From the NCBI RefSeq assembly GCF_003716325.1, contig NZ_RDSR01000016.1, positions 1 through 64,000 of the forward strand: 64,000 nt of DNA, read 5' to 3'. Shown one piece after another: positions 10,736 through 34,079 of this stretch. The notes beneath the pieces were generated by a model that was not told the DNA's origin, did no database searches, and saw nothing but the letters and a program-made list of their open reading frames with translations. Every line of letters starts with the position of its first letter. Position 1 is the first letter of the stretch. The translations under genes were made by a program, and so were the position numbers. This DNA comes from Cryobacterium tepidiphilum. GTDB lineage: Bacteria; Actinomycetota; Actinomycetes; Actinomycetales; Microbacteriaceae.

Positions 10736-10757
10736 ACCCCGCAGAAGGCAGAACACC

Positions 10758-14711: not shown

Positions 14712-14716
14712 GGGGC

Positions 14717-16207: not shown

Positions 16208-16210
16208 GGG

Positions 16211-18160: not shown

Positions 18161-18459
18161 CCGGAGAGGTCCGTCGCCATGTCGGTCATGTCAGATCCCC
18201 GCGACCGGTGGAGGAGGGTGGCGACCGCGAATCCCATCGCCATCTCCACCGTCATCGCGGCGATCACGACCAGGAGGAGCACCTGGCCATCGGGTGCGGG
18301 AGCCAGGAACCACCAGAAGGCTGTGACCGCGAGAATCACGGCATTCAGCATCAACTCCAGGCCCATCATGACCATGACGACGACTTGCTGGGAGAGCGCT
18401 CCGTAGAGCCCGACGCAGAACAGCGCGGCCGCTGCGATCAACACAAGTTGCAGGCTCAT
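18157..18459 (-). CDS. nuoK: NuoK-like subunit
   Basis: A 100-residue protein with three membrane helices. The two membrane glutamates typical of NuoK are present in MGLELMLNAVILAV and IAAMTVEMAMGFAVA. In complex I these form part of the central hydrophilic axis that couples quinone chemistry to the antiporters. The ATG overlaps the nuoJ stop and the gene's own stop overlaps the nuoL start, so all three are translationally coupled. Confidence 0.92.
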   Translation of the reverse strand: MSLQLVLIAAAALFCVGLYGALSQQVVVMVMMGLELMLNAVILAVTAFWWFLAPAPDGQVLLLVVIAAMTVEMAMGFAVATLLHRSRGSDMTDMATDLSG

Positions 18460-19951: not shown

Positions 19952-21134
19952 GCCGCATGGCTCCGCTTATGGCGAGCGATGCGGTGTCTAGGCTGGCGGC
20001 GGCGATGATCAAGCGAGCCGTCGCGACATCCGTGCCCTCAATGAGCGCGGGAAGGGCCCGCAGCAGCTCCTGCTGCGAGGCAACATCGCTCGCCGCATGC
20101 CGCTCGGATGCGCCCCCGGCAGATTGAGCGGCTTCGCGAAGCAGATCCAGCATCCGTTCACGCACCGTCACGGGCTCACCGCTTCCCACGGCACCGATGG
20201 CTGCAGGGATTCCCCTGAGCGTCCAGCGGAGAAGTCGGGAACGGCCGACCGTGCGCACCAGCGACTCGAGCTGAGCACCCAAGTCGGCCAATGCGGCTCC
20301 CACCAGTGCAGCGTCGCGGATCCGCTGGGCGCGAGTGGCAGCAGACGGCCACCCGGCGAGAGCGAGCACCCGCGCGGCTTGGTCGCAGTTCCGCACGACC
20401 ACCCGCCGCTGCTCGCCTCCTGCCGAACCGTCGGGGGGTAAGCCGACCGGGACGCCGGCCGCCGGGAGGACCTTTGCTTCCGCCTGGCCGATCACGTCGC
20501 CGTGCAGAACGCAGTCGACCACGAGGCCCGCGTGCCAGTGCGGGAGCACGGGTCCGAGGGGGACGTGGAGAACGTCCATCTCGAGGCCGTCCCTGTCGGG
20601 AGCCCCACTCGCGAGCGGGATCCCCGACGGCCCCGACATCGTCGTGTGGTCGTGCGTCGCCATGCCCGAGTGGTCCATGCCGGGCATATCGGAGTGGTCC
20701 ATGCCGGAATGGTCCATGCCGGGCATACCCGGGTGGTCCATGCCCGCGTGGTCCACGCTTGAGTGCTCGTCCAGCCCTTGTGGCATGCTCGTCGGCCTGG
20801 CCCGTGCGTCCCTCCGTTGCGCGTCATCATCGCCAAGTTCGTCGGCGGCGCTATCCAAGGCCGTCGACACGTCGCGCGTAACGTCGACCGTCACACGAGA
20901 GCGTGGCCCCGGCATCTGGGACCAGACCCGCGCGCAGACGCTGGCCAGTTCGTGACCTGGCGCACCGCAGACGACCAGGATGTCGGCGTCGGCGGGTGAC
21001 GTCGCCGCCTTCCAGCCCCGAAGCCGCAGCTCTCCCTCCACTGCCATCCGAACTTCCGCCCACCCAGGGGTTTCCACCAAGAGCACGTGTACGCGGCGCA
21101 GCGCGCCCTGGGCGATGCTGTCTCTCAGACCCAT
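19944..21134 (-). CDS. NuoB/NuoD-like fusion with Met/His-rich linker, lacking Fe-S ligands
   Basis: The 396-residue protein occupies the nuoB-to-nuoG position. Residues about 12-95 follow NuoB (SPADADILVVCGAPGHE, then RVWSQMPGPRSRVTVD, matching SPRQADLMIVAG and RRLYDQMPEPKWVI) but lack the four NuoB cysteines. Residues about 120-165 are a repeat of MDHSGM/MPGMDH units with many Met and His, a likely copper- or silver-binding segment. Residues about 180-396 resemble the start and helical core of NuoD (VPLGPVLPHWHAGLVVDCVL, then AGWPSAATRAQRIRDAALVG). The ATG at 21134 overlaps nuoA by 10 bases. A metal-sensing or structural cap on the membrane arm is one reading; no redox activity is expected. 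Confidence 0.7.
   Translation of the reverse strand: MGLRDSIAQGALRRVHVLLVETPGWAEVRMAVEGELRLRGWKAATSPADADILVVCGAPGHELASVCARVWSQMPGPRSRVTVDVTRDVSTALDSAADELGDDDAQRRDARARPTSMPQGLDEHSSVDHAGMDHPGMPGMDHSGMDHSDMPGMDHSGMATHDHTTMSGPSGIPLASGAPDRDGLEMDVLHVPLGPVLPHWHAGLVVDCVLHGDVIGQAEAKVLPAAGVPVGLPPDGSAGGEQRRVVVRNCDQAARVLALAGWPSAATRAQRIRDAALVGAALADLGAQLESLVRTVGRSRLLRWTLRGIPAAIGAVGSGEPVTVRERMLDLLREAAQSAGGASERHAASDVASQQELLRALPALIEGTDVATARLIIAAASLDTASLAISGAMRHE
20655..20765. repeat. Tandem repeats coding for Met/His-rich linker
   Basis: Imperfect 9- to 15-base units built on TGGTCCATGCC (plus strand) encode repeated M-D-H-S-G-M and M-P-G-M-D-H motifs in the NuoB/NuoD-like fusion. The repeats stay in frame, and their copy number could vary between strains. 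Confidence 0.8.
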
Positions 21135-21475
21135 TGAAGTGCGCCCTCCCGCCATGCCCAGATCACGCCGACCATCAGCACGCCGAGGAAGACGAACATC
21201 TCGACGACTGCGCCCATCCCGTCTCGCGCGACGATGACGGCCCAGGGATACATGAACAGCATCTCGACATCGAAGGCGAGAAAGAGCAGGGTCAACGGGT
21301 ACCACCGGGCGTGATAGCGCGACAACGCGTGCTCCTGGGGTTCCCACCCGGAGAGAAAGGGGAGCTGCTCAATCGGATCCGACGCAACGGCGGTGTACTG
21401 CGCCACGAGATACAACCCTCCGACCGCAAGCAGCGCGATCACGAGAATCAGGGCAATGCTCACGTAGCCGGACAC
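21125..21475 (-). CDS. nuoA: NuoA-like subunit
   Basis: A 116-residue protein with three helices. The NuoA core FLAFDVEMLFMYPWAVI is well kept. The preceding loop reads FLSGWEPQEHA where NuoA normally has YECG, so the conserved Cys is Ser here. In complex I that loop closes the quinone cavity. It is the first gene of the Nuo-like run, 107 bases after the sortilin-like gene on the same strand, with no obvious separate promoter. Confidence 0.92.
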   Translation of the reverse strand: MSGYVSIALILVIALLAVGGLYLVAQYTAVASDPIEQLPFLSGWEPQEHALSRYHARWYPLTLLFLAFDVEMLFMYPWAVIVARDGMGAVVEMFVFLGVLMVGVIWAWREGALQWV

Positions 21476-21582
21476 GTCGACCCCTTCACGATGGTTTCAC
21501 AGGTGCGCTGCAGCATCTGTCGAGCCGCTGTCCACGCTAGCCCGGGTTCATTCAGACGACAGGGGCGCCAGTGCGCTTATCG

Positions 21583-22536
21583 TCAGTTGACGACGACATC
21601 CCGCCACGTCGCACCCTGGTCCGTGCTGGCCAGAATTCCCTCCTCGGTGGCAACCACGAGCCGCGCGGATGGAGCTGAGGCGTAGGTGAGCGCTTCGGTC
21701 ACGCCGTTGATCGTGCCGGTGGACGTCCAGGTAGTACCGTCCTGGTTCACCCAGATGGTCCCGTCGACGTCAACACCGATGAGACCGCCGCTCTTGTCAT
21801 TCAGTGAGTCAACCAGGTACAGCGCCGGGGCATTTGGTACCAGGGCAAAGGTGCGGGCACCGTCGGTGCTCACCGCCAGACCTCGAGCCGTTGTGGCGTA
21901 GACCGTGTCGGGCTTGGACGGGTCGACACTCAGATCCCGGGCGACAATCTGGGCGCCGGTGGTCCAGGTCTTGCCGCTGTCCGCACTGACTCGGACGACT
22001 CCAGCCATCTCGTCGTACCCGTAGATGCGAAATTCTGGGCCGTCGGCTGCCACGGCGAGATCGTGGAAGTCGGTTTGGCCTCGCAACGAAACGGATGTCC
22101 ACGTGGCCGCCTCGTCACTGCTCGTGATTAGACCGAGATTCGGAGGGTTCAGCACTGGTTCTTCAGTGGGGTCGGGGTGTCCCGAACCGAACATGAGACC
22201 ACTCGCCATCGTGAAACCCATGGTGTCCTGCGCTCGGCCAGCAATAGGTCCCTCAACCTCGCTTGCGGGCACGGCTTCGGCATCCAGGGGTGGAAGTCTG
22301 AACACGCCGGCGTGGGTAGCAGCGAACGCACCCCCGGAGGTTGGATCGATCCCGATCCCGTGAACGTGGCCGAAGGCGCTGCGCCCCGCAGGAATGGAGG
22401 CGGCCGGCGAATCGACGGCTGTCGCTGCGCATCCGCTGAGACCAGCCGCGACCGCGACTGCCGTCAGCACTGCCGTCCAGCGGCGCACTATTAGCGTGCC
22501 GCCGGGAGCGAAAGAGTTGAAGCGCTTTTCATCCAT
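21583..22536 (-). CDS. Exported sortilin/BNR-repeat lipoprotein (F510_1955-type)
   Basis: A 317-residue lipoprotein with lipobox LSGC and a beta-propeller of BNR/sortilin-type repeats. Repeated S-x-D-x-G-x-T-W boxes are visible: TSSDEAATWTSV, SADSGKTWTTG, STDGARTFALV, STDQGATWRDV. It begins with GHVHGIGIDPTSGGAFAATH. Proteins of this layout are found beside copper genes in actinobacteria and firmicutes, but no activity is established. The ATG at 22536 overlaps the stop of the HMA gene by eight bases; longer in-frame starts would overlap it much more. Confidence 0.82.
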   Translation of the reverse strand: MDEKRFNSFAPGGTLIVRRWTAVLTAVAVAAGLSGCAATAVDSPAASIPAGRSAFGHVHGIGIDPTSGGAFAATHAGVFRLPPLDAEAVPASEVEGPIAGRAQDTMGFTMASGLMFGSGHPDPTEEPVLNPPNLGLITSSDEAATWTSVSLRGQTDFHDLAVAADGPEFRIYGYDEMAGVVRVSADSGKTWTTGAQIVARDLSVDPSKPDTVYATTARGLAVSTDGARTFALVPNAPALYLVDSLNDKSGGLIGVDVDGTIWVNQDGTTWTSTGTINGVTEALTYASAPSARLVVATEEGILASTDQGATWRDVVVN

Positions 22537-22858
22537 TCGGACCTGCCAGCTCGTAGCCGGCCTCTTCGATTGCAGTACGAACCAACGACACGTCAAGGGC
22601 TTCGGCGCTGTTGATCCTGACGCAGGATGCGCCGCTGGCGACGAGATCGACGGAGACGCTCTCGACGCCCTCGAGCGCAGAGACCTCTTCTGTGACGCTC
22701 GCAACACAGTGGGAGCAGGTCATGCCGGAGACCAGGTAGTCCGTGTGGACCGGAGCTGTAGAACGGGTGGCATCGGGGGTGCTCACTTCGCTGGCGTGGC
22801 CGCAGCAACTGCAACCATCGTTAACGTCAGTCAGTCCGAGATCGTTCAGGTCTTCCAT
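22529..22858 (-). CDS. HMA-domain copper chaperone with Cys-rich N-terminus
   Basis: A 109-residue cytosolic protein. Residues about 38-105 form an HMA (CopZ-type) domain with the GMTCSHC copper site. The first 35 residues carry an extra Cys/His patch (DGCSCCGHASE), seen in some actinobacterial copper chaperones fused to a short metal-binding leader. It is the first gene after the CsoR-like operator at 22917-22935 and is coupled to the sortilin-like lipoprotein, so it probably heads a copper-induced operon running through the Nuo-like genes. Confidence 0.9.
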   Translation of the reverse strand: MEDLNDLGLTDVNDGCSCCGHASEVSTPDATRSTAPVHTDYLVSGMTCSHCVASVTEEVSALEGVESVSVDLVASGASCVRINSAEALDVSLVRTAIEEAGYELAGPNG

Positions 22859-23274
22859 CGTGTTCTCCCACTTCCATATCCGCGAGTTCTATTGCACGGG
22901 AACATTACGAAAAGAGTATACCCCCAGCGGGTATAGGTTGAGTTAGCAGCGGTGCCCATGGTCAGGCGCATTCGGTCTTGGCCACCCACCTCGTGGGTGA
23001 ACACCGGATATTCCAGCTCAGTGCACCGGTCACACCGAGTACGAGAGCCACAGCCACTCTTGATGTGGCGCTTCGAGGTTGAGGAGGCCTCCGCCGCGAT
23101 TCGCGGGCAAAGGGAAGTTTCGCGGCCGGAGAGCAACGGTGATTCGCGGGAGACTAGCGTGCACGTTTCTCCTCCTCCTGTTTCAGAGATCGGTTTTGCG
23201 AAGGCGATCGTGCCTTGATCAAACCCCACATTGAGTTGAGGACCGCGGATGAAGGTTGCTCGAGAGCAGGGTAG
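22859..23274. other. Intergenic region upstream of copper operon
   Basis: The 416-base gap holds the CsoR-like operator and should hold the copper-operon promoter. No convincing gene was seen. A minus-strand frame with a short Cys motif (CGSRTRCDRC) at about 22990-23060 may be a gene remnant, but it has no credible start or family. Confidence 0.4.
22917..22935. promoter_or_regulatory. CsoR-like operator TATACCC-N5-GGGTATA
   Basis: A perfect 7-5-7 palindrome lies 59 bases upstream of the HMA chaperone start. It matches the TACCC-N5-GGGTA form bound by CsoR-family Cu(I) sensors. No csoR gene was found in the window, so the repressor would be encoded elsewhere. Confidence 0.7.
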
Positions 23275-23961
23275 TCAGCAGCACTCACACGGTTCGACGG
23301 CGCGTTCTCCTGTCAAGGCGGCAACGGGCACAGCGCAGGTGTCGCCCTTCCAGGCTTCGAGTCCTTCCTTGATCGCGAAGCCTGCGATGACCAGGGCGGC
23401 GATCGAGTCAGCCCACACCCATCCCAGAAGCGTGTTCAGAAGCAGGCCGACGAGAAGTGCTGCCGAGAGGTAGCTGCAGATGAGGGTTTGCTTGGAGTCC
23501 GCAATCGCAGATGCCGACCCGAGCTCGCGACCGGTCCGGCGTTCGAACCAGCTCAGGAATGGCATCACGGCCAGACTTACCGCGGCGAGGGCGATCCCGA
23601 CGGCGCTGTGTTCTGCCTCGCGGAGGCCGAACAGTGACAGGCCGGCATCGACAATCACGTAGGCGGCCAGGCCGAAGAACGAGAATGCGATTATGCGTAG
23701 CGCGACCTTTTCACGTTTTTCAGGGTCCGGCGCTGAGAATTGCCAGGCGATCGCTGCCGCGGAGAGAACTTCCACGATCGAGTCCAGGCCGAAGCCGATG
23801 AGCGCGGCTGAGGAGGCGACCGTGCCGGCCGCCAGTGCGATGATCGCCTCGACGACGTTGTAGGTGATCGTGATAGCGACGATCAAGCGAATGCGTCGTT
23901 TCAGTACCTGCTTGCGGAGCGGCCCCAGTACGCGGACAGGTCCGGTCGTGGTCGCAGTCAT
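23275..23961 (-). CDS. CDF-like cation transporter with C-terminal Cys tail
   Basis: A 228-residue membrane protein with six helices of the CDF fold (IGFGLDSIVEVLSAA in TM2, ADSKQTLICSYLSA in TM5, which carries the D-S-x-E/D-type metal site). It lacks the usual cytoplasmic domain and instead ends GERAVEPCECC. This compact type often follows CmtR/CadC regulators. Substrate Cd, Pb or Zn is likely but not proven. The ATG overlaps the cmtR stop (ATGA). Confidence 0.85.
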   Translation of the reverse strand: MTATTTGPVRVLGPLRKQVLKRRIRLIVAITITYNVVEAIIALAAGTVASSAALIGFGLDSIVEVLSAAAIAWQFSAPDPEKREKVALRIIAFSFFGLAAYVIVDAGLSLFGLREAEHSAVGIALAAVSLAVMPFLSWFERRTGRELGSASAIADSKQTLICSYLSAALLVGLLLNTLLGWVWADSIAALVIAGFAIKEGLEAWKGDTCAVPVAALTGERAVEPCECC

Positions 23962-24311
23962 GAGCCGGTCCCGCAGCACAGGGGAACGTCGCAGTTACTG
24001 TCGGAGCATCTCTCGCCGTCGTCAACAGCGAGTACTACGTCGACCAGTGAGGTGAGTGCCCTGGTCAGGTGCGGGTCGGCGATCTCGTACCGGGTCTGGC
24101 GCCCCTCCGGGACCGCTACAACAATTCCGCACCCGCGCAGGCAGCTGAGGTGATTGGACACATTCGACCGGGTGAGGTCCAGGTCGCGTGCCAATCGGGC
24201 CGGATAGCCGGGCTCGTCAAGCAGGCTCATCAATATCCGCGAACGGGTTGGATCGGCCATCGCCCGTCCGAGCCGGTTCATGACATCGAGACGTGAAGCA
24301 ATAGTCAGCAT
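23958..24311 (-). CDS. cmtR: CmtR-type Cd(II)/Pb(II)-sensing repressor
   Basis: A 117-residue ArsR-family protein very close to mycobacterial CmtR. It shares LGRAMADPTRSRILMSLLDEP, then LTRSNVSNHLSCLRGCGIV with the two metal-binding cysteines of the DNA-recognition helix, and a Cys-containing C-terminus that can supply the third ligand. The start chosen (24311) matches the family N-terminus. It is operonic with the CDF gene at 23275 and divergent from the CDF gene at 24378; palindromic sites overlap its start codon. Confidence 0.93.
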   Translation of the reverse strand: MLTIASRLDVMNRLGRAMADPTRSRILMSLLDEPGYPARLARDLDLTRSNVSNHLSCLRGCGIVVAVPEGRQTRYEIADPHLTRALTSLVDVVLAVDDGERCSDSNCDVPLCCGTGS

Positions 24312-24340
24312 ATAGTGACTATACAGCTTAGGATGACTAT
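24301..24340. promoter_or_regulatory. CmtR operator cluster
   Basis: A perfect palindrome TATAGT-G-ACTATA (24311-24323) overlaps the cmtR start codon. Two more TGACTAT half sites lie at 24301-24307 (inverted) and 24334-24340. The position implies a leaderless or very short cmtR leader, with repressor bound over both divergent promoters. Confidence 0.7.
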
Positions 24341-24377
24341 TGGCTGAGTCGCCGACGACATCCACACGAAGGAACGT

Positions 24378-25292
24378 ATGACTGGACACGATCACTCCCA
24401 TGTTGCTCCTTCTCACCGCGGACGGCTCGCGGTGGCCTTTGGGATCACTGCGACGATCCTGGTCGCCGAAGTCATTGGCGCGATTGTCACCGGCAGCTTG
24501 GCGCTGCTTATCGATGCCGCGCACATGCTCGTCGACGCGGGCGGGCTTCTGCTAGCTCTGGTGGCAGCAACGTTGGTTGCCCGCCCTACAACGGCTCGCC
24601 GTACATGGGGGTTCGCCCGCGCAGAAGTGCTCGCGGCCACGGTGCAGGCGGCGATCCTTCTAGCGGTGGGCATCTTCGTGTTTGTTGAGGGCATCCAACG
24701 CTTGATCAACCCGCCCGAAATCGCCTCTGGTCAATTGGTCGTTTTCGGAATCATCGGACTGGCCGGGAATGTCGCCTCGATCATCGTTCTCGTCAGCGGG
24801 CGCAATTCATGCTTCAATCTGCGCGCCGCGTTCCTCGAAGTCGTCAATGACGCTCTCGGCTCGGTCGCTGTCATCGTCGCGGCCATCATTATTGCGACGA
24901 CTGGTTGGACACGTGCTGATGCCGTGGTGGCGATGCTCATCGGCGTGCTGATCCTGCCCCGAACGTTCAAACTTCTCCGAGAGACTCTCGACGTCCTGTT
25001 GGAGTCGACGCCGAAGGGGTTGGATCTTGACTCGGTACGCAGCCACATTCTCGATCTCCCACACGTTCAGGCCGTGCATGATCTGCACGCGACTCAGATT
25101 TCGACGGGCCTTCCCGTTCTCACCGCTCACGTCATCGTTGACGATGAATGCTTCTTCGATGGGCACGCGCCGGCGATGGTTGATGATCTGCAGAAATGTG
25201 TGGCGGAACACTTTGCTGTCTCGATCGAGCACTCCACATTCCAGCTTGAGCGTGCAGCCCACGGTGAGCACGAGCACCAGCCGCACGCCTGA
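24378..25292 (+). CDS. CzcD-type CDF cation efflux protein
   Basis: A 304-residue exporter with a His-bearing N-terminus (MTGHDHSHVAPSHRG) and six helices. Metal sites are AAHMLVDAGG in TM2 and FLEVVNDALGS in TM5 (H/D and N/D variants of the CDF tetrad). The cytoplasmic domain (HVQAVHDLHATQISTG) ends HGEHEHQPHA. It exports Zn/Cd/Co-type ions. It is divergent from cmtR and shares its operator region, so it should respond to the same metals. Confidence 0.92.
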   Translation: MTGHDHSHVAPSHRGRLAVAFGITATILVAEVIGAIVTGSLALLIDAAHMLVDAGGLLLALVAATLVARPTTARRTWGFARAEVLAATVQAAILLAVGIFVFVEGIQRLINPPEIASGQLVVFGIIGLAGNVASIIVLVSGRNSCFNLRAAFLEVVNDALGSVAVIVAAIIIATTGWTRADAVVAMLIGVLILPRTFKLLRETLDVLLESTPKGLDLDSVRSHILDLPHVQAVHDLHATQISTGLPVLTAHVIVDDECFFDGHAPAMVDDLQKCVAEHFAVSIEHSTFQLERAAHGEHEHQPHA

Positions 25293-25311
25293 CCTGATGC
25301 CGGCCGTAGGG

Positions 25312-25699
25312 TCACGGGCGCAGGCCGGCCAGACGAAGCACGGCTGCTAAACCTTCCGGGGTGCCGGGCCAATGTTTCAGGATTGCTGGGCTCGCCGCAC
25401 GTCGAGTCGCGAATTGCAGGGCGATTGCGACTACGAGCGCGTCGTTGGCGTACCCGAGGAATTTGTATGAAATCGGGTATCAGGTCGAGGGGGGAGAGCA
25501 GATACACCAGGAGCACGACGAGCCAAATCCGAACCCAGATCGATACGTCGCGGTCAGCCGCCAACCGTTTCAAAAGCCGACCCACATCCGGTGCCAGGCG
25601 CAGCAAATCACGCAGGGACGCTCCTCCAGGATTCCGTCGCCGACAGCTCTGTCGCCGATGCAGGAGCTCGTACTGCTCAGAGCGGAAACCGATGAGCAT
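25312..25699 (-). pseudogene. Frameshifted DUF1232 gene
   Basis: The first part encodes a normal DUF1232 core (RIWLVVLLVYLLSPLDLIPDF). At about 25462 the frame breaks. The next frame continues the family sequence without loss: GYANDALVVAIALQFATRR, then ILKHWPGTPEGLAAVLRLAG, to a TGA at 25312-25314. One missing base explains the break. DUF1232 proteins are small membrane proteins of unknown role. The start is uncertain. A sequencing error would also give this picture. Confidence 0.7.
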
Positions 25700-25810
25700 G
25701 AAGCCGTGGGGACCGGTTTCGGTGCGAAAGTATCAAGCTTCTGCTTCTTCGCATCCGGTGCCATCATTGGCGTCCAGCCGGACTTGCTCGGGATGTAAGG
25801 GCTGGCCGTC

Positions 25811-25982
25811 GTGATCGTCGCGGCTGGCATGGTGGAGCTAGCGCTCCTGGGTATTGGAGCGGCCGTCGGTCTGCTCTCAGATGCTTCGCCCGTCAAACGC
25901 CGTGCGCCGGCTCATGATCGGATACGGGGCGGTCGGCATGACCTATTTGCTGGGTCTGCTGCTCGGCGCCGGCGCTGTGTGA
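25811..25982 (+). pseudogene. C-terminal remnant of a VIT1/CCC1-type transporter
   Basis: Only the last two helices remain. ELALLGIGAAVGLL is followed, after a frame change near 25880, by MIGYGAVGMTYLLGLLLGAG and a TGA at 25980-25982, the usual VIT1-family ending. No N-terminal part was found upstream. It lies between the DUF1232 pseudogene and a thioredoxin-fold gene, in the decayed part of the cargo. Confidence 0.55.
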
Positions 25983-25984
25983 CG

Positions 25985-26290
25985 TCAGCTTCGTTCGTTC
26001 AAAACCTCGACCAGTTGGTCGACGGTTGGCATTCCGGCGAAACCTGTCGGCGTCCTATAGATCCGGCACGCCAGATCCGACGTCCGGCTGCCGGGAAAAG
26101 CATCAACGCCATCGATAAGGATCGTCGGGGATCCGGCGAAGGGAAACTCGGCGGCCTCTTCGCTCGACTGCAGCAACCGATACTCGATCGACGTCGTCGG
26201 GCGGCCGGTCGCAGCAAGCGCACCATGAACTCTCCGGCCGGCTTCTTCCCAGTTTGGGCATTCCGCAATGTGCAGGATCTCGATATTCAC
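25985..26290 (-). CDS. Small thioredoxin-fold protein
   Basis: A 101-residue cytosolic protein of the thioredoxin-like type common beside mercury and arsenic genes. It has a beta-alpha-beta start (IEILHIAECPNWEEAGRRV), a cis-Pro loop (AGSPTILIDGVDAFPG) and the ending YRTPTGFAGMPTVDQLVEVL. A single Cys replaces the usual CxxC (AECPNW). No mer or ars gene is adjacent here, so it may be a leftover of a larger resistance operon. Function unknown. Confidence 0.75.
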   Translation of the reverse strand: MNIEILHIAECPNWEEAGRRVHGALAATGRPTTSIEYRLLQSSEEAAEFPFAGSPTILIDGVDAFPGSRTSDLACRIYRTPTGFAGMPTVDQLVEVLNERS

Positions 26291-26569
26291 GCTCTCATTC
26301 TCACCCGGTTCCCCGGCGGGTGCAGGGAGCCATCCGCGATCAGTTTTTCAGTACCCATTAGCGCCAGTTTCGTCTTGCTCCCTCTGTGACAAGTCTTGAA
26401 ATGAGGATCCTGGCGAGTGGTCGTAGCATATGTTGTGATCGCCGGGCCAAAGCAACTCGTCACCCAGGCTGCAGCGTTGAGACTGATTAGTACGGTGCAG
26501 CGATCACGCCACCGAGCAGTCCGGCGGTGGCGAGTCCAGCGCTCCAGAGGCTCCGACCAGAGGTCAGCC
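26291..26569. other. Intergenic region, nothing recognised
   Basis: The 279 bases between the thioredoxin-fold gene's start and the next minus-strand stop show no convincing frame, repeat or RNA. Confidence 0.4.
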
Positions 26570-26890
26570 CTACACGGTCTCGCCCGCTTCCATGCGTTGT
26601 CGCCACCGCAACAACCGGGTGAGTATGCTCTCGACGGATTCGTCAAATGGGCGGTTGAGTTCGAACTCCACCGGCGCGAGCTGTCGCGGGATTCCTATGA
26701 GGGTAGCGGCGAAGCAACCGACCTCCTCGGGAACGTAGCGTCCGACGAAGAGTGTGCCCGCTGCCACCTCGATAGTGCCGGGAGGCAGGCGTCGAATAAC
26801 CTCGTCGACGATCTCTTGCGCTCTCGGCTTCAGGGCTTGCGCCTCAGCTTCGGTGCGGTACTCCCGCCATTGCATGTCGTCCGGTTCCAT
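26570..26890 (-). CDS. Hypothetical protein
   Basis: A 106-residue soluble protein that I do not recognise. It begins MEPDDMQWREYRTEAEAQ, has a predicted helix-strand pattern (IVDEVIRRLPPGTIEVAAGT) and ends in a basic helix (ILTRLLRWRQRMEAGE). The start at 26890 is preceded by GGAGCGAAC. It is divergent from the metallophosphoesterase operon, with a 278-base gap that should contain both promoters. Confidence 0.5.
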   Translation of the reverse strand: MEPDDMQWREYRTEAEAQALKPRAQEIVDEVIRRLPPGTIEVAAGTLFVGRYVPEEVGCFAATLIGIPRQLAPVEFELNRPFDESVESILTRLLRWRQRMEAGETV

Positions 26891-27168
26891 GTGTGTTCGC
26901 TCCTGAGTCGTCGCAATCGATCTTGAAGCTGGCCCGGTGCTGTGACTGGAGAGCCGGCAGATCATGTGATCCTTCCTAACAGCCCCTCGGGTGCGTCCGT
27001 TCCCGCCTTGGAAGACATAACAGCGAGCGCCGACGTGGAGGAACGTCGTCAGGCAGTCCGCGACGCCAAGGAGGGGTTCAGCTGCGAAATGTCGTCCATG
27101 CCGGGAACGAGAGGTTTGAGCCAGCGGATACGGTCACGAGACGGCCGACTGCAAGGAGTAGCGCTTTG

Positions 27169-27474
27169 ATGGATTCGCTCATGGACAGCACGCACGGCGC
27201 CTACCGCGTTGTCACGGCAGCTTCGCGTTACCTGATCGATTTGGATCGGATGGTAGTCCGCCGAGAGCCGCGTGCAGAGAATCCAGAGGGATCATTGCTA
27301 AGGCGTGACGACGAGTTGATCACCCTGCTCGACATTCTCGATTGCACCGTGGGTCGACCGATGCGGCTGCACATTGACCTCCACGTGCTCGGGGTTCCGT
27401 CTACGCTACGTTGTTCAACCCCGGTGGTGTCCATTGAGCGTGTGGCTTCGCCGGGGGAGCAGTCCAAGCCATGA
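27169..27474 (+). CDS. Stand-alone copy of a repeated unknown domain (domain X, copy 1)
   Basis: A 101-residue protein. The ATG at 27169 follows AAGGAG by ten bases. Its body shares a pattern with the C-terminus of the next gene product and with the one after it: an opening aromatic strand (YRVVTAASRYLIDLD), then R-x-P, a central segment with LLDILDCTVG, and the ending STPVVSIERV. I do not recognise the family. Its stop overlaps the metallophosphoesterase ATG by four bases, so the two are translationally coupled. Confidence 0.65.
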   Translation: MDSLMDSTHGAYRVVTAASRYLIDLDRMVVRREPRAENPEGSLLRRDDELITLLDILDCTVGRPMRLHIDLHVLGVPSTLRCSTPVVSIERVASPGEQSKP

Positions 27475-28562
27475 CCGAGGACATCCGCAGCCTGTCGGGC
27501 GCTTGGCGTATCGGCGTCCTCGGTGACACTCATGGCGACAGGGAACATGTCCTTTCCGTTTCCAACACGATGTGGAAGCGGGGTTTGCCCGTGTTGTTGG
27601 TTCTCGGTGACTTCGGTTTCCTGTGGCGGGGCCGGAACTGGGACAACGACTTGGACAAGCTCAGCCGACGGCTCGCCAGCCGGGGACAGGTGCTCTACTG
27701 GCTCGACGGGAACCACGAGGACTACGGACTGCTTTTGGGCAACTTCCCGGTGTCGGCCGACGGATTGCGCCGACTTCGGCCCAACATTGTTCATCTGCCG
27801 GGGGGTTACAGGACGGCGCTTGCCTCGGGCAAGACTCTGGCTGTGCTGGGCGGAGCGAATTCAATTGACAGGTTCCTCCGTCAAGAAGGGGTCACCTGGC
27901 CGCGGGAGTCGATCACGGACGAGGACCTGAGAGCGCTCGGTGACGAACATGTGGACGTTCTGGTCGGCCACGATGCCCCACTCAACGTTCCTAGCCTGGA
28001 CGCCTCGCTGGTCGAGAGAGCTTCCGATTGGCCGCCGGATATGGTCGCTTACGTAGCCTCCGGACGCCAGAAGTTCCACCAAGGCTTCCTGCAGGTGCGC
28101 CCACGGCTGTACATGGGTGGGCACTATCACCGGCACATCGACGAATTGGTGGCATTCGGCGACGGCGGTGACCAATTCCGAACTCGGGTGGTGATCTTGG
28201 ACGGCAACGGACCAGAGACCCTGAGCCAGGGCGTCCTCGATGTGGGAACACTCGATCTGGTGCTTTTCGCTCGGGACGACGATACGGTCACCGAACTCAC
28301 CGGTCACGCGGATGGGGTGTGGCAGGTGCATACGCGAGAGAGTGTGCACGTGTTCGATCTGAGCGCTCAAACCACCGAGCGGCGGCCCGGCGACGGAGCC
28401 GTTCTCCGAGAGAGCGGTTGGCGACGGCTGAGGTCGATAGGGACGTGTCGTGTCGGTGACCGAGGATTCTGGACGGTGGAGTCCGACGATGACTTCTTTG
28501 ACTACTACTGGGTCCACAGCACTGTGATTGAACGGATCGAACGAGTGAGAGATGAAGGATGA
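27471..28562 (+). CDS. Metallophosphoesterase fused to domain X
   Basis: A 363-residue protein. Residues about 12-235 form a calcineurin-like phosphoesterase with all metal-binding motifs: GDTHGD, GDFGF, GNHED, VGHDAP and GGHYHRH. Enzymes of this fold hydrolyse phosphomonoesters, phosphodiesters or nucleic acids with two metal ions. Residues about 285-360 are a second copy of the small domain of the preceding gene (WQVHTRESVHVFDLS, IGTCRVGDRGFWTVES, HSTVIERIERV). Overlaps of four bases at both ends place it in the middle of a coupled operon. The substrate is unknown; nucleotide or RNA is possible. Confidence 0.85.
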   Translation: MTEDIRSLSGAWRIGVLGDTHGDREHVLSVSNTMWKRGLPVLLVLGDFGFLWRGRNWDNDLDKLSRRLASRGQVLYWLDGNHEDYGLLLGNFPVSADGLRRLRPNIVHLPGGYRTALASGKTLAVLGGANSIDRFLRQEGVTWPRESITDEDLRALGDEHVDVLVGHDAPLNVPSLDASLVERASDWPPDMVAYVASGRQKFHQGFLQVRPRLYMGGHYHRHIDELVAFGDGGDQFRTRVVILDGNGPETLSQGVLDVGTLDLVLFARDDDTVTELTGHADGVWQVHTRESVHVFDLSAQTTERRPGDGAVLRESGWRRLRSIGTCRVGDRGFWTVESDDDFFDYYWVHSTVIERIERVRDEG

Positions 28563-28885
28563 GCGTGGATGCGCTCAGCGGCAATGAAGGCGGCCGATGG
28601 CGGGTATGCACGCAGGGTAGCTCCTATGTCTTTGACCTCGACGAGTGGACTGTCACGCGTTTTCCGGGTCCAACGTCCCGGTCCTCGGTCAACGACACTA
28701 CGCGGCCCATCCGAAGGATCGTGCGGTGTCGCGTGGGGGCGAACGGGTATTGGACGATGGAAGCGGGTGTGCTGAAGGAAGATGAGGACGCCTTTTACTG
28801 GGCGTCGACGAGCGTCATCCGGTGCATCGAGCGCATGAATGATCACGCCGGTGGATCAGGGCGCACTGAGCGGGAACCGATGTGA
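28559..28885 (+). CDS. Stand-alone copy of domain X, copy 3
   Basis: A 108-residue protein consisting almost entirely of the same domain found in the two preceding gene products (WRVCTQGSSYVFDLDEWTV, IVRCRVGANGYWTMEAG, STSVIRCIERM). The ATG overlaps the previous stop and its own stop overlaps the next GTG. No family recognised. Confidence 0.65.
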   Translation: MSVDALSGNEGGRWRVCTQGSSYVFDLDEWTVTRFPGPTSRSSVNDTTRPIRRIVRCRVGANGYWTMEAGVLKEDEDAFYWASTSVIRCIERMNDHAGGSGRTEREPM

Positions 28886-29352
28886 GCAGTTGGGATGAGG
28901 TGCGCGCCCTCGGTGTCACCTTCGGCGTTGACGGCGAAAACCTCCTCGACCACGCGGAGGCCCGAAGAGTCTCAGCGGAACTTTTGATCGAGGCATTTCA
29001 TCGGGCGGTGGATCTCGGTCATGAATTCCGTAGGCGAGGACAGCTGCCGCCATTCGAGGCTTTCGAAGCTCTCCCGCTGGGAGTTTTGGATTTGCGTGTC
29101 TTCGACCAAGGTGCGTGGTGGGTCGACGTGCTGCGGATCCCGCACCGTATCTGCCTTCCGGGATCATTGAGCGATCATCACTTGCGCAACATCATCATCT
29201 ATCTCACCGATCGCGCTGAGGCGCATTACGCCGCGTACTCGCAAGCGTTCCCGTTGCGACGAAGCTCGTCCGATCCAGCGGAGTGGCTGGAGCAGACCGT
29301 CCTCATGAGTGCGCTAAGAGAAGAAGCACAAGCGCGAGGCGTGACTACTTAA
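28882..29352 (+). CDS. Hypothetical protein, last gene of the phosphoesterase operon
   Basis: A 156-residue soluble protein starting at a GTG that overlaps the previous stop (GTGA). It is mainly helical (ARRVSAELLIEAFHRAVDLG) with an aromatic-rich centre (VFDQGAWWVDVLRIPHRI). No family recognised. It lacks domain X. Coupling to the metallophosphoesterase genes suggests it works with them, for example as a partner, substrate carrier or inhibitor. Confidence 0.6.
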   Translation: MSSWDEVRALGVTFGVDGENLLDHAEARRVSAELLIEAFHRAVDLGHEFRRRGQLPPFEAFEALPLGVLDLRVFDQGAWWVDVLRIPHRICLPGSLSDHHLRNIIIYLTDRAEAHYAAYSQAFPLRRSSSDPAEWLEQTVLMSALREEAQARGVTT

Positions 29353-29527
29353 CACGCGCACTTGGGCAGAGCGAGCCGCTGGGCGAGCGTCGTGATCCAG
29401 CGCCTTCAGGAGGGCCGCTGAGTCACATCGTCAATCACTCACGTCCCCGTTGCAGAGAGCCTTCCGTTCGCGTCGCCGCGCATGAGTCTTTTGGGCGGCT
29501 CGACCTCCGCCCGAAAGGACGGACGTC

Positions 29528-29992
29528 GTGGCGCGAGACGACGCGTGCAGCGGGCGGCACCTTGGCAAGCTCGATGAGCACTGGCTCGACGAGTTCGCCA
29601 ATTTGGAGCGACATGTAGAGCTGCGAGGAGCTATGCCTCGGGAGTCGAAGAATCAGACCTCGCAGGTTTCAGGAGAGGCTCGTTTGGCGGGATGGGTACG
29701 TTATCAGCGTCGTCGAGCCGTACGCGGGATCTTGCCGGACTGGCAGCGTGAGCTGCTCGAGCAAATAACTGGGTTTCTGTGGGATCCGAGCAACGAAAAC
29801 TGGAGCCGGCACTTGGCGACGTTGACGGCATTTCTTGAGCGGGAAGGGCGTGTGCCTCGGTACCGATCGTCAAACGCGGAGGAGCGGAGGCTCGCTGCTT
29901 GGGTGCACAAGCAACGTCATCTCCACGGGCGCGGCGAGCTCCATCAGGTGAGGGTTGACGCCTTGAGGCGTCTGCCGTTTCGCATTGTTTAG
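29528..29992 (+). CDS. Protein of two helicase-associated (HA) repeats
   Basis: A 154-residue protein starting at GTG. It contains two HA (PF03457-like) repeats: one from about residue 17 (HWLDEFANLERHVELRG ... LAGWVRYQRRRAVRGIL) and one from about residue 87 (NWSRHLATLTAFLEREGRVP ... LAAWVHKQRHLHGRGEL). These repeats usually sit C-terminal to superfamily II helicases and are thought to bind DNA. Here there is no helicase domain in any frame upstream, so this is either a free-standing DNA-binding protein or the tail of a lost helicase. Confidence 0.72.
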   Translation: MARDDACSGRHLGKLDEHWLDEFANLERHVELRGAMPRESKNQTSQVSGEARLAGWVRYQRRRAVRGILPDWQRELLEQITGFLWDPSNENWSRHLATLTAFLEREGRVPRYRSSNAEERRLAAWVHKQRHLHGRGELHQVRVDALRRLPFRIV

Positions 29993-30157
29993 GCGCGCCC
30001 GCCGATCGAATTATGTCTTCCGAACCGGGAAGACATCGGAAGGGTTTTGCCTACGGTCAAGAATGTGCAGTCTTCCATCGGAGTATCCCGCCCGCCTCAT
30101 GTAGCCGCAACGCGACCGGCGACGTCGCGATGGCCGGTGTATTTCAAAAGCGGCGAT

Positions 30158-30538
30158 TCAGTTTTCTACGACAGCTTCGGAAGAGATCTCAGTGACTGCT
30201 TCTCCGACAAACGACCCCAACGCGGGTATCCGGCGGCCCCAGTACATGAGATCGGTGAAGGTCATCATCGTTTCGCCCCGCATGATGCGCTGCAGGCGCT
30301 CATAGCTGAGACCAGCCGGCAGATGCTCCTTGTCGCAGTATGCCTTGAGGTCAGAGTGGTGATCCAGGACATACTCACGGACTTTGTTCGCGATCGCGTG
30401 TTGGAGCTCCGCAGCGGCCTGCTGGGGCGAACTGACCTCCGCGCCGAGGCGGGTGCTGGAATTACCGAACTTCTTGCGGTTGGACGCGTAGGAGCGTGGC
30501 ACGAAGACAGCGCCGCCCGGCTTCGGTGGTCTTGGCAT
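30158..30538 (-). CDS. HTH protein of the recombination module
   Basis: A 126-residue protein with a basic N-terminus and an XRE-like helix-turn-helix in the second half (LKAYCDKEHLPAGLSYERL, then IMRGETMMTFTDLMYWGRR). The ATG at 30538 is favoured over a start 48 bases upstream. It is divergent from the recombinase-like gene across a gap of about 130 bases, the usual place for a regulator of transposition or an accessory DNA-binding factor. Target unknown. Confidence 0.7.
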   Translation of the reverse strand: MPRPPKPGGAVFVPRSYASNRKKFGNSSTRLGAEVSSPQQAAAELQHAIANKVREYVLDHHSDLKAYCDKEHLPAGLSYERLQRIMRGETMMTFTDLMYWGRRIPALGSFVGEAVTEISSEAVVEN

Positions 30539-30671
30539 GAAAGAAGTGTACCGAGTATGCACCGGAGACAGGCGTTTATCGACCAATTAGAACCGCATTT
30601 CGGCCATTCAGCTTCAAGATGCACCGCTTCTTGTCTTCCATGGCGGGAATGTGCCGCACACGAACATTGGC

Positions 30672-31856
30672 ATGACTACCCCCAACAATCGGTCAGCACC
30701 CGTCGACGCCAGCGCCCCTGCAACATCGATCCGTCCGGCCGGCCCGTCACAACATGCGGAAACGCGACGGCGGATACACGCCTGCCCGGCGGTGAGTTAC
30801 GACAGCTCTGCCAGGCTGCTGCGCTTCAAGGAGGGGACGGATGACGAAGGGGTGGCGGCCGCCCGGATGACGTTGCGCAGCGAGCCGGCAGGTGACGAAG
30901 CGCGCGCCGCGATGATCGCGGCGCGTTCGTCGATGCCCGCCTCGAGCGCGAAGAAGATGACCGAATACGTTCCTGACCTGCCAGCTGAGCAGGTGAACGT
31001 GATTCGCCCGTTCGTCGAGGACGCCATCACCCTGGCTCTCCCACAAAACAGTTACTCCGTGGAAGCGCTGCTCGGGCCCTGCATGCACTTCGTATACTGG
31101 GCGGTGTTCGTGGTCGGTGCGGACCTCGACGCGTCCATTATCTTCGACCGAGAACTCATCGAGCACTACGTTCGCGAGTCTCTGCCCGAGTTGGCGGAGG
31201 GAACTCGGCGAAATCATCGTGCCTGGCTGTTCCGAGTCGCGGAAGCAGTGAACCCCGAAGCGAACCCGCGCAATCCGATGCCGCTGAATGAGCGAAGCCT
31301 GGACACGCCATACGACGATGACGAGCGCACCGCGTTGGATCATTGGGCTGCAGGGCAAGCGACCCCTTACATGCGACAGGCCGCCACAGTTTTGATCGCG
31401 CTTGGGACCGGCGCCGGTCTCAGCTCGGGTGAGATTGCCACCCTTCGCCGCGAATCAGTGACGGAGGGCCCGGATCGGGTCGTCAGCATCGAGCTGCCAG
31501 GTGAGGACAAGCCCCGGATTGTCCCGGTCACCGCTCGCTACGAGAAGGCACTCGCCAAGGCAATCAAGAAGGTACCCGCGGGGGCGTTCGTGTTCTTGCC
31601 GAACCGCACGCGCACCGGCAATGAGGTGGTCAGCGCGTGGGTGGCCCGCTCCCTGACTCCACCCGGCACACCTACAGTCCGGGTGCGCCGAATGCGCAAT
31701 ACCTGGCTCGTTACCCACATGGCAAACCGCGTTGACGTGCTGACGCTCATGGAAGCCGCCGGCCTGCAGTCGCTGGAATCCATCTCCCGGCTCGCGGCCT
31801 TTGTTCCGCGGCCGTCCGAGGACGCCCGCACCGCTCAGTTGCGGGGCACCAAGTGA
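30672..31856 (+). CDS. Tyrosine-recombinase-like protein lacking catalytic residues
   Basis: A protein of about 394 residues. The C-terminal 180 residues follow the tyrosine-recombinase fold: GTGAGLSSGEIATLRRESV (box I), VRRMRNTWLVTHMANRVDVL (box II) and LMEAAGLQSLESISRL. The catalytic residues are mostly gone: box I Arg is Ser, the first His of box II is Arg, the second is Asn, the GH His is Leu and the nucleophilic Tyr position is Ala; one Arg remains. An SAM-like N-terminal region (about 105-200) precedes it. The start is uncertain (GTG at 30651 also possible). The stop overlaps the transposase-like GTG, so the two act together; a DNA-binding targeting subunit is likely. Confidence 0.72.
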   Translation: MTTPNNRSAPVDASAPATSIRPAGPSQHAETRRRIHACPAVSYDSSARLLRFKEGTDDEGVAAARMTLRSEPAGDEARAAMIAARSSMPASSAKKMTEYVPDLPAEQVNVIRPFVEDAITLALPQNSYSVEALLGPCMHFVYWAVFVVGADLDASIIFDRELIEHYVRESLPELAEGTRRNHRAWLFRVAEAVNPEANPRNPMPLNERSLDTPYDDDERTALDHWAAGQATPYMRQAATVLIALGTGAGLSSGEIATLRRESVTEGPDRVVSIELPGEDKPRIVPVTARYEKALAKAIKKVPAGAFVFLPNRTRTGNEVVSAWVARSLTPPGTPTVRVRRMRNTWLVTHMANRVDVLTLMEAAGLQSLESISRLAAFVPRPSEDARTAQLRGTK

Positions 31857-33769
31857 GCCGCCCGACTCACGAGAGTCAGCACAAACAGGCCGAAGAATGG
31901 ATGATCAAGTCCTTCGGAAGTCGCATGGGCGACTACCTGACGCACTCACGCCGTGAACCGCTCGGGCTCGCCGTCGTAGAAGTGGACCGTGTCCTGAAAG
32001 CGTCAGGCGTGCGGAGAATGCTCACCGAATGGCGCGCCGAAGACGTCAAGTCCCCGGCGGGCCGTAGACCAATTCTCGATGCCACCGCAGCTCTCAGCCT
32101 GATTCTGCTTCAGATCCGGCTCGGCCGACCCACCCTCATCACCGAACTGGCGCAAACCCTGCTGCAGCTGAGCTCCACACAACGTAAGATCTTGCATCTC
32201 ACCCACGACGGCAACGATGAACGGGCCTATGAACGCATCTGGGATGCCGTGCAGCGCCTGATACGTCTCGTCGACGAGTTCCCAGGCCGCCGCGACAAAG
32301 TTCTCACCGAGGCGGAGTACCGCGAGACGGTCGCCGACCGCGACCCGGTGCTATGCCGCGTCCGTAGGAAGCGGATGCACACGCTTGCCAACGCTCTTGT
32401 CCACGCAACCTGGCTGCTGCTCCCGTCGGAGCTCCGCGACCGATTCCACGGCAACACCGCCATCGACGCCACGTTCGTGCCGCTATACGGAAAGTCAGGG
32501 AACCCATCCTCACGAGTGCTTGACGGCGACCGCCGCACCGCGAACCCCGACGGAGGATGGTACCGGCGAGAAGGCGACCACGGGGCGGTATCTCATGCCG
32601 ATGCGCGCTTCCTCAATAAGGCACGACCGGACGGAAAGGTGAAGGGCACCTCGACCAGGAAACTCAGTTGGGGGATCGAGACCGAGATCGCACGAATGAC
32701 GCCGAACCATCCTTCCGAAATCGACCAGTTCCCCCTGCTGACCACAGGCCTCGGTTTCCACATCCCCGGCGCGATCGCCGGAGAAGGCCTGCAACTGCTG
32801 ACATCCCTCCATGATCGAGGCCACAAAATCAACCTCTTCATCATGGACCGGGCATACCCGGCAGCCATCTACTCCGAGTTCCACGTTCCGGCCCGGCTTC
32901 TCGGCGCAAAACTCGTCTTCGACTACAAAGACAAGGACCTGGGAGTCAAAGCCCACCATCCGGACGGCTTCGTGCAGGTGTCCGGAAGCTGGTACCTGGA
33001 CAGCCTCCCCGAAGTACTGCGAACGGCTGACGCCACCGTCCTCACCGCGAGAAAGAAGCACGGGGAAAGTGCCGGCAAGCTCGCGAAGGCCGAAGCGGAG
33101 TACGAAAAGAAGACGCGACCGGCGAAACGCCACATCGACTCTGACGCCCTGCAAAAGGCAGAACAAGCCCTGAAAGACGCCCGGAAACAGTACGGTCCAG
33201 GCGCCCGTGCCCTCGCTCAGGCCGAAGACCTCTACAAGAAGCAACTCAAGCGCCGCGCCCACTATCAGCTCAAGAGCAAGGGGCACATGAGCGCCGACGG
33301 AACCCGCAGGTACTTGATCCCCGAACCATCCACGGAGAACGGTCACCTGAAGACCCCGCACCGGTATCAGCAGAAGACCGTCATGATGAAGCTGCCGGTG
33401 GGCGTGCCCGAAAAGGACAAGAACCCTGGCGGCCTGAAGCACGAACAATACTTCCCCTACGGGGATGAGCAATGGAGCGCCGCCTACGGCATGCGCAACG
33501 GCGTCGAATCAGTCAACCGCAACCTCAAACGTAGCCAGTACGAAGACATCGCCAACCCCGACAAACGCGCCGTGCGCGGCAACACCTTCACCTACCTCGT
33601 AATCGCTCTGGCCACCGTGGTCGAGAACCTGCGCCAGATCCTGAGCTTCTATAAGCGCAAACTCGCGCTCGACCGCGTGACCCCGAAGAACCGCGATATT
33701 CCGAGCACGTTCTGGCAAAGCGACGGACCAGCCGTCCGACTGGAGGACGGTTCGCAGCCGCCAGGCTAA
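31853..33769 (+). CDS. Large DDE transposase-like protein
   Basis: A 638-residue protein with an RNase-H-type DDE core. Candidate catalytic residues are Asp205 (AIDATFVPLYG), Asp332 (FIMDRAYPAA) and Glu552 (RNGVESVNRNLKRSQYEDI), the last followed by a conserved RAVRGNTF segment and helix. A Lys/Glu-rich, probably coiled insertion (about 400-465) lies between the second Asp and the Glu. The family resembles DDE proteins of actinobacterial mobile elements that are often annotated only as hypothetical or transposase. GTG start overlaps the recombinase-like stop (GTGA). It lies 200 bases from the island's right terminus and has a second partial copy at 1-96. Confidence 0.82.
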   Translation: MSRPTHESQHKQAEEWMIKSFGSRMGDYLTHSRREPLGLAVVEVDRVLKASGVRRMLTEWRAEDVKSPAGRRPILDATAALSLILLQIRLGRPTLITELAQTLLQLSSTQRKILHLTHDGNDERAYERIWDAVQRLIRLVDEFPGRRDKVLTEAEYRETVADRDPVLCRVRRKRMHTLANALVHATWLLLPSELRDRFHGNTAIDATFVPLYGKSGNPSSRVLDGDRRTANPDGGWYRREGDHGAVSHADARFLNKARPDGKVKGTSTRKLSWGIETEIARMTPNHPSEIDQFPLLTTGLGFHIPGAIAGEGLQLLTSLHDRGHKINLFIMDRAYPAAIYSEFHVPARLLGAKLVFDYKDKDLGVKAHHPDGFVQVSGSWYLDSLPEVLRTADATVLTARKKHGESAGKLAKAEAEYEKKTRPAKRHIDSDALQKAEQALKDARKQYGPGARALAQAEDLYKKQLKRRAHYQLKSKGHMSADGTRRYLIPEPSTENGHLKTPHRYQQKTVMMKLPVGVPEKDKNPGGLKHEQYFPYGDEQWSAAYGMRNGVESVNRNLKRSQYEDIANPDKRAVRGNTFTYLVIALATVVENLRQILSFYKRKLALDRVTPKNRDIPSTFWQSDGPAVRLEDGSQPPG

Positions 33770-33820
33770 ACAGCCTCAGTAGCCGAAACACCCCCGCGTA
33801 TCCGCAACACCGACGACATC

Positions 33821-33848
33821 GGCGTGCCTGAAATCATTCAGGCACGCC
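33821..33848 (+). terminator. Rho-independent terminator after transposase gene
   Basis: A perfect 12-bp stem with 4-base loop, identical to that at 147-174, is followed by ATTTTTGGTTT. It ends the recombinase/transposase transcript before the island terminus. Confidence 0.8.
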
Positions 33849-33973
33849 ATTTTTGGTTTAACGCCGCGTCTCGCAGTCCAGCCGCACCTCGCACAAACGG
33901 GGTCGGGGCATTGAAAAAGGCCGCCCAGCCGAAGTGCCAACTGTTGCGACCTATTTTCCGAACGAAAGCCCGG

Positions 33974-33991
33974 AATTCTCCGAACTACCCA
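33974..33991. repeat. Right terminal inverted repeat of the island
   Basis: AATTCTCCGAACTACCCA is the inverted partner of 321-338 (16 of 18) and identical to 300-317. It is followed by CTG and then, after one base, by the tRNA-Leu 3' end. About 35 bases inward (from GCGACCTATTTTCCG) are also shared with the left element's right end, probably a transposase-binding block. Confidence 0.8.
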
Positions 33992-33995
33992 CTGT

Positions 33996-34079
33996 GTCCG
34001 AGGGGGGACTTGAACCCCCACGCCCTATACGGGCACTAGCACCTCAAGCTAGCGCGTCTGCCATTTCCGCCACCCGGAC
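33996..34079 (-). tRNA. tRNA-Leu (anticodon GAG)
   Basis: The reverse strand gives a class II tRNA of 84 bases. Acceptor GTCCGGG pairs with CTCGGAC, the D arm contains GGCAGACGC, the anticodon stem CTAGC/GCTAG holds loop TTGAGGT (GAG), a long variable arm (TGCCCGTATAGGGCG) is present and the T arm contains GTTCAAGTC. No encoded CCA. The mobile island ends immediately 3' of this gene, which remains intact. Confidence 0.95.

Follow-up and report, generated by a model that had tools for sequence, protein, structure and literature searches.

A tyrosine-recombinase-fold protein lacking its active site accompanies a Tn5-like DDE transposase in putative tRNA-homing transposons of actinobacteria

We examined 64,000 nucleotides of Cryobacterium tepidiphilum DNA (contig NZ_RDSR01000016.1, positions 1 to 64,000; hereafter the window), in which a first-pass annotation made from the sequence alone had proposed an unusual transposition system. 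Three genes are at issue: P1 (30651..31856, plus strand), for which profiles, model and alignment predict a tyrosine-recombinase fold without catalytic residues except the box II Arg; P2 (31853..33769, plus strand), a predicted IS4/Tn5-type DDE transposase of 638 amino acids; and P3 (30158..30586, minus strand), a small divergent gene. All three open reading frames (ORFs) were found as annotated, including the 4-bp overlap (GTGA) of P1 and P2. Our analysis indicates that P1 and P2 probably supply the transposition functions for a family of transposons that is found in actinobacteria and homes to transfer RNA (tRNA) genes, with P2 performing the chemistry and P1 reading the target. The idea of an unusual transposition system was confirmed and proved more general than had been claimed, as the pair recurs across actinobacterial families.

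The P1 and P2 proteins and their pairing

The catalytic triad proposed for P2 (D205, D332, E552) was invariant in an alignment of 34 diverse rows (34/34, 34/34 and, among rows with a letter at that position, 33/33), in the contexts DATxxP, DRxY and Y-x2/3-R-x3-E-x6-K. Within the last of these, a YREK-type motif, Arg was present in 33/33 rows and Lys in 32/33; the Tyr was found in 18/34, with H, F, W, K, M or a gap otherwise, and the window P2 has the full motif. When the AlphaFold model of P2 was compared to known structures, Tn5 transposase occupied ranks 1 to 5 (Z 16.4 to 15.9, 270 to 274 residues aligned, root-mean-square deviation (rmsd) 4.2 to 4.4), the best match having Z 16.4, 272 aligned residues and rmsd 4.2. 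The next-best matches were piggyBac (Z 10.9, 303 aligned, rmsd 6.7) and retroviral integrases (Z about 9). Pfam and NCBIfam scans of the window P2 gave no meaningful match; the NCBIfam model of IS1182 transposase matched 4 of 17 P2 members, though not the window P2, at a best E of 2.7e-4, so that a place in the IS1182 family is at most tentative. Weighing against the assignment, the model was of middling quality (predicted local distance difference test score, pLDDT, 71.7), and a plain Foldseek search with P2 returned nothing at E below 0.001, its top rows being mostly unrelated long-helix proteins. Conserved residues and model nevertheless give good support to the prediction of P2 as an IS4/Tn5-type DDE transposase with an RNase-H-like transposase fold.

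For P1, a Pfam scan of the window protein gave no match of its own, and PHROG_216 (integrase) matched amino acids 235 to 377 at E 2.5e-6. Fifteen of 20 family members matched PF00589 at E up to 1 (best 2.7e-8), and a 20-row profile of the family matched XerA (4a8e) at E 1.6e-8. The structural model of P1 aligned with XerA over 249 residues (Z 16.3; rmsd 14.3, with the two domains at a different angle) and with the catalytic part of Cre over 167 residues (Z 15.3, rmsd 3.2); further matches were XerH and the Tn1549 integrase. Profiles and model together point to a fold with both the core-binding and the catalytic domain of a tyrosine recombinase. The true start of P1 is uncertain because conservation is low across its N-terminal stretch, which the model leaves unfolded.

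Catalytic residues were assessed with two Xer-type recombinases from the same genome as reference. The window P1 has S, R, N, L and L at the columns of the box I Arg, the two box II His, the GH-box His and the Tyr, and keeps the box II Arg, so that the description of this protein as a dead recombinase held. Across 38 P1 rows, which include the two halves of one frameshifted gene (L206) and two neighbours (L217), the first box II His and the GH-box His occurred in none, the second box II His in 1, the box I Arg in 7, a Tyr at the aligned column in 16 and the box II Arg in 36; the full R-H-R-H-Y set occurred in 0/38. A later set of 16 rows, three of them already among the 38, added 13, including both P1 genes of the Pro-type elements, and all of these were without the three His. 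Box I Arg, box II Arg and Tyr are, however, present together, again without the three His, in 5 of the 38 rows (L031, L032, L033, one of L043, and L202) and in L171 and L173 of the 13 added, which counts against a uniform loss of activity. Because some rows hold Arg, Arg and Tyr together, inactivity is unproven for every row; judged from the alignment, loss of the active site is well established in the window protein, and most rows have probably lost it too. Two recombinase-fold genes precede P2 at loci L036, L038, L041, L043, L224, L226 and L228-L230.

Relatives of P2 were found in 37 of 100 related genomes at E <= 0.001, and the P2 family profile matched in 38 of 57 genomes of the genus and in 23 of 394 genomes of the class. 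The closest P2 at a named locus, with 66% identity, belongs to Cryobacterium algoritolerans (Microbacteriaceae). A single-protein scan of genome contigs with P2 gave no relative, and none was found in phage records searched with the window P2 and that of NBC_00057.

Conservation of the two genes as a pair, named in the first-pass annotation as a check on its proposal, was assessed in the 57 genus genomes from the first 52 P2 rows (weaker rows excluded) and all 58 P1 rows. Of 29 P2 genes that were near-full (500 or more of 594 profile positions), 28 had P1 immediately upstream, and P2 lay downstream of 44 of 50 longer P1 genes (at least 250 profile positions). For two of the six P1 genes without P2 (G052:C86), a P2 fragment is present among the weaker rows excluded from the count. 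A tRNA 3' end faced P2 within 1.1 kb at 25 of the 29 loci (Leu CAG, Leu GAG, Ser GCT, Pro GGG); among the other four P2 genes, two meet the left end of the next element, one adjoins a tRNA-Pro fragment, and the fourth (G033:C48:41580) is also without P1. Both the pairing and the tRNA neighbour are more than chance would give. At 20 class-wide loci, from 20 of the 23 genomes (our own genome, G036 and G456 excluded), a tRNA stood behind P2 in 18 (Met, Leu, Ser, Ala, Gly, Val) and P1 was present in 15, the other five holding P2 fragments or partial matches.

Other actinobacterial families also have the pair, as do plasmids of Streptomyces, with the genes annotated "hypothetical". In named plasmid records a divergent regulator gene is followed by genes labelled "hypothetical" that the P1 and P2 profiles recognise (Streptomyces; Rhodococcus opacus with two P1). 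As a point against homing to tRNA genes, a tRNA was present in the stretch read at 0 of 5 plasmid loci, the ends of two of which were not identified. A relative of P3 was found at 9 of 20 genus loci, and Streptomyces records have annotated helix-turn-helix (HTH) regulators in its place; P3 is the probable regulator of the operon. Since P1 and P2 are translationally coupled, the two proteins may be made in a fixed ratio or act as a complex. On the R. opacus plasmid NZ_CP130954.1 (L272), an Xre-type gene, two P1-like genes and one P2-like gene lie beside formaldehyde-assimilation genes.

Element ends and flanking duplications

Terminal repeats and flanking duplications place the whole element, with its cargo, at 322..33990 (33,669 bp). 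The left terminal inverted repeat, GGGTGATTCGGAGAATTG (322..341, plus strand), matches the right one, GGGTAGTTCGGAGAATTC when read inward (33971..33990, minus strand), at 15 of 18 positions in inverted orientation. Comparison of the flanks revealed a 5-bp duplication, ACTGT, at 317..321 and 33991..33995, the left junction reading ..CTACCC-ACTGT-GGGTGATTCGG.. and the right ..CTACCC-ACTGT-GTCCGAG(tRNA). The last base of the right copy is the discriminator position of the target, an intact tRNA-Leu (GAG) gene (33994..34079, minus strand, by tRNA gene call) about 220 bp from the P2 stop. The ends of 318 and 33994 proposed in the first-pass annotation were thus nearly right, and the repeats and duplications shift them by a few bases. 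G+C content in the window steps from about 0.61 to 0.70 at 34000.

A second P2 gene is represented at 1..96 (plus strand) by its tail, 31 codons and a stop, 97% identical to P2 residues 608-638; it marks the right end of an upstream element, which is truncated where the contig begins. The right terminal repeat of that element (297..316, plus strand) is identical in sequence to 33971-33990. Because of the P2-gene tail and the right-end-like sequence up to 316, we conclude that two elements stand in tandem in the window.

In relatives, ends could be read for a minority of elements, and these had inverted repeats with flanking duplications of 5-6 bp. G030 has 23.4 kb between two copies of ACGGA, and its uninterrupted relatives read tRNA-CACGGAGATTG once. 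Matching flanks were also found at tandem junctions (GCTGT in G032 and G004, AGAGT in G308, TGCGGT at the Pro element of G015), at the tandem junction of the G050 Pro element (TTTGGT, provided that a single element fills the interval between the two ends read), and on both sides of 8,505 bp at tRNA-Ala in G470 (TCTGT). Short direct duplications around inverted ends, the mark of a transposon that duplicates its target site, are therefore present in the window and in some relatives. The flanking 5-mers of near-identical Leu-CAG ends differ (GCAGT, GCTGT, AGAGT, CTTGT); if the 5-mers come from the target, such differences between elements with near-identical ends are to be expected.

Several observations weigh on the other side. 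The G030 stretch may be composite because a P2 fragment lies near its far end. Duplication length varies between 5 bp and 6 bp, and the Ser element of G015 shares up to 9 bases. Left ends were recognized in few elements: three clear and one weak of 19, plus G030 (from its empty site) and G004 (from its tandem junction), and 2 of 7 in a second set of class-wide elements. The left-end search found nothing convincing in the other 15 of 19 and 5 of 7, many of which have little upstream sequence.

With the invariant triad and the Tn5-like fold, the 5-6 bp duplications lend good support to the proposal that the DDE protein performs the chemistry. P2, through D205, D332 and E552, would bind and cut the inverted ends and join them to a staggered cut in the target, which would yield the duplication.

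Inverted pairs within right ends were also considered as recombinase core sites and were dropped, as comparison with shuffles gave values below 0.05 for only 2 of 18 ends (G015-Ser, p 0.003; G045, p 0.013). Right-end-like sequence follows tRNA-Leu(GAG) at L065, L069, L071-L073, L084 and L089, in genus genomes without a P1 match at E <= 1e-8; these are solo or decayed ends. At L226 (G050:C1:3703500-3711500), a tRNA-Pro 3' fragment of about 37 nt lies right behind an element end and is followed by other DNA; the arrangement resembles the distal end of an ordinary integrase-type island within that array.

Insertions away from tRNA genes and the choice of target

On NZ_CP108257.1 (L276, 205000-236000), an element of about 5.5 kb lies within one spacer of a type I-E CRISPR (clustered regularly interspaced short palindromic repeats) array, in the order repeat-GCAACTCG-TTGCA-(element)-TTGCA-GGAGGCCGAGGGATTCTCG-repeat. 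When one of the two TTGCA copies is discounted, the interrupted spacer measures 32 nt, as do spacers in this array (61-bp period, 29-bp repeat), and exactly 5 bp were therefore duplicated. This copy has five annotated genes, encoding a methyltransferase, an HTH protein and three hypothetical proteins of which two are P1 and P2, although the gene table may be incomplete. Other insertions away from tRNA genes have AAGCC on both sides (NZ_CP109164.1, 6 bases shared) and CAACG on both sides (NZ_CP108868.1, 6 shared).

These insertions bear on the possibility that P1, or another recombinase, integrates the island site-specifically at the tRNA, the matching 5-7 bp being an overlap region and not a duplication. 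Matching flanks alone cannot separate overlap from duplication, and the location at tRNA 3' ends, the inverted arms around a short spacer, the box II Arg in 36 of 38 P1 rows and the aligned Tyr in 16 would all suit such a mechanism. The 38 P1 rows, however, have the box I Arg in 7, the second box II His in 1 and the other two His in none, and the P2 triad is invariant. Furthermore, the flanking 5-mers differ among near-identical Leu-CAG ends, one element sits in a CRISPR spacer, and the junctions read have no far-end tRNA fragment, unlike the 37-nt tRNA-Pro remnant in the G050 array. We consider tyrosine recombination very unlikely.

We also considered whether the P1 and P2 genes are passengers or relics on islands moved in trans by another recombinase. 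Many P2 copies are decayed, and right-end-like stretches occur in genomes without a P1 match, which favours a passenger role. The triad and the pairing are nonetheless conserved across families, and the 5.5-kb copy on NZ_CP108257.1 carries five annotated genes. An active integrase, which the first-pass annotation had raised as a competing cause of movement, was also sought: the window contig has no PF00589 integrase or PF00239 serine recombinase match at E <= 0.001, and Pfam scans of 35 ORFs picked from window positions 96-33769, P1-P3 included, gave no recombinase or integrase. Movement in trans is accordingly the least probable of the explanations weighed here.

All three non-tRNA sites with both ends read had the motif GGATT starting 10 nt from the duplication edge at the right end. 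The tRNA-Ala target in G470 has GGATT at the same 10-nt spacing, as part of the T-arm, and the window tRNA-Leu has GGACT at that place. In the NBC_00055 group, where only the right end was found, the spacing fits if 5 bp are assumed; NBC_00055, NBC_01230 and NBC_01527 have common neighbours and were counted as one insertion. GGATT has a background frequency of 3.8e-4 per position in five of the plasmid stretches. The spacing was first noticed in NBC_00057, NBC_01727 and the NBC_00055 group, which makes selection possible for those sites; NBC_00829, retrieved later, agreed with the pattern.

The first-pass annotation had left the role of the dead recombinase as target or end recognition. A T-arm motif at fixed spacing in both tRNA and non-tRNA insertions favours target reading, with P1 as the presumed reader. 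The alternative is that P1 recognises the element ends, providing synapsis and end specificity, and that the tRNA target is read by P2. In its favour, proteins with a tyrosine-recombinase fold bind short inverted sites, and related ends have short inverted motifs in common. Against it, the inverted-pair pattern of the right ends lacked significance at most ends, Tn5-type transposases bind the ends of their own elements, and tyrosine integrases classically use the 3' part of tRNA genes as attB, which fits an origin of P1 as a target reader.

Trees of the two proteins fit either assignment. On the P1 tree, for which 36 of 40 loci gave P1 (none from L264-L267), tRNA identity required 12 changes compared to 22.4 in shuffles; on the P2 tree, built from 34 of the same loci (L029, L221 and L264-L267 excluded), it required 12 compared to 20.5. 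Values as low occurred in 0 of 200 shuffles in each case, in a comparison where near-copies favour such clustering. As the two trees cluster alike, they are silent on which protein reads the target, a point against using them for P1. Overall, we regard end recognition by P1 as unlikely.

We favour target reading, in which P1 would be a former tyrosine integrase that lost catalysis and kept the complete DNA-binding fold, with the box II Arg as its sole nearly constant catalytic residue. The T-arm of the tRNA gene is the most likely docking site of P1, which would put P2 about 10 bp off, at the tRNA 3' end. Insertion at that distance from the T-arm would therefore leave the tRNA gene intact.

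Comparison with known systems and cargo of the island

The P1-P2 elements resemble the IS4 superfamily (Tn5, IS1182) in the triad with its YREK motif, the Tn5 fold, the single transposase protein and the inverted ends, and differ from it in the coupled partner, the large cargo and, here, tRNA homing. To our knowledge, Tn5 and IS4 elements have no dedicated target selector. Conventional tRNA genomic islands have tyrosine integrases, lie at tRNA 3' ends and form tandem arrays; the P1-P2 islands differ in having short duplications, no active integrase found, and no far-end tRNA 3' fragment in the junctions read. We know of no recombinase-fold partner in tRNA-targeting CRISPR-associated transposons (CASTs) or in the fish Dada transposons. 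Both are described as DDE-type and, like the P1-P2 elements, go for tRNA genes (PMC11406308, PMC8869645), yet these CASTs are Tn7 machinery with TniQ and Dada elements have eukaryotic transposases.

The closest precedent found is TnsF of the Tn6022-like Tn7 transposons. According to Faure et al. 2023 (PMC10293859), this inactivated tyrosine-recombinase-domain protein selects comM, is experimentally needed for transposition, and acts in a system that forms target-site duplications; its partners are TnsA, TnsB, TnsC and TniQ, it carries zinc fingers at its N terminus, and its catalytic domain is only partial. Likened by description, the two systems have in common a tyrosine-recombinase-domain protein without active site beside a DDE transposon; the P1-P2 system differs in that its recombinase fold is complete, one Tn5-like transposase stands where TnsB would be, and its targets are mostly tRNA genes. 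Neither TnsC nor TniQ was among the 35 window ORFs scanned with Pfam, and neither is listed in the possibly incomplete gene table of the 5.5-kb NZ_CP108257.1 copy. On these two sources the elements do not belong with the Tn7-like transposons, which combine TnsB, the TnsC ATPase and TniQ. In Tsy elements, likewise, a TnsF-type protein has a recombination enzyme and an HTH gene as neighbours; there, active tyrosine recombinases catalyse, and the passages concerned mention no DDE protein (PMC10293859). Within the literature covered, with subscription papers and preprints outside its scope, TnsF/Tsy was the sole precedent for a dead recombinase with a DDE transposon, and novelty is provisional to that extent.

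There is a fair chance that the P1-P2 family deserves a class of its own. On balance we lean towards a two-protein homing transposon in which a retired, T-arm-reading tyrosine integrase directly contacts a Tn5-like DDE transposase that works without an ATPase or TniQ adaptor, and thereby steers it to tRNA genes. Under that reading, actinobacterial islands would integrate at tRNAs by a second route besides tyrosine recombination, and unrelated transposons would have recruited a dead recombinase for target selection on at least two occasions. Large islands behind tRNA genes would then apparently be placed by transposition, a job usually credited to tyrosine integrases. With two proteins, a defined DNA motif and a fixed spacing, the system is a small case of target selection that could be rebuilt in the laboratory, and it offers a likely role for actinobacterial genes now annotated "hypothetical".

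The cargo within 322-30000 includes three cation-efflux genes, two ArsR regulators, DUF305, DUF326 and redoxin genes. Complex-I/Mrp-like membrane subunits form a block at 13260-19951, and an ApeA-domain gene at 1905-3377 is a possible defence gene.

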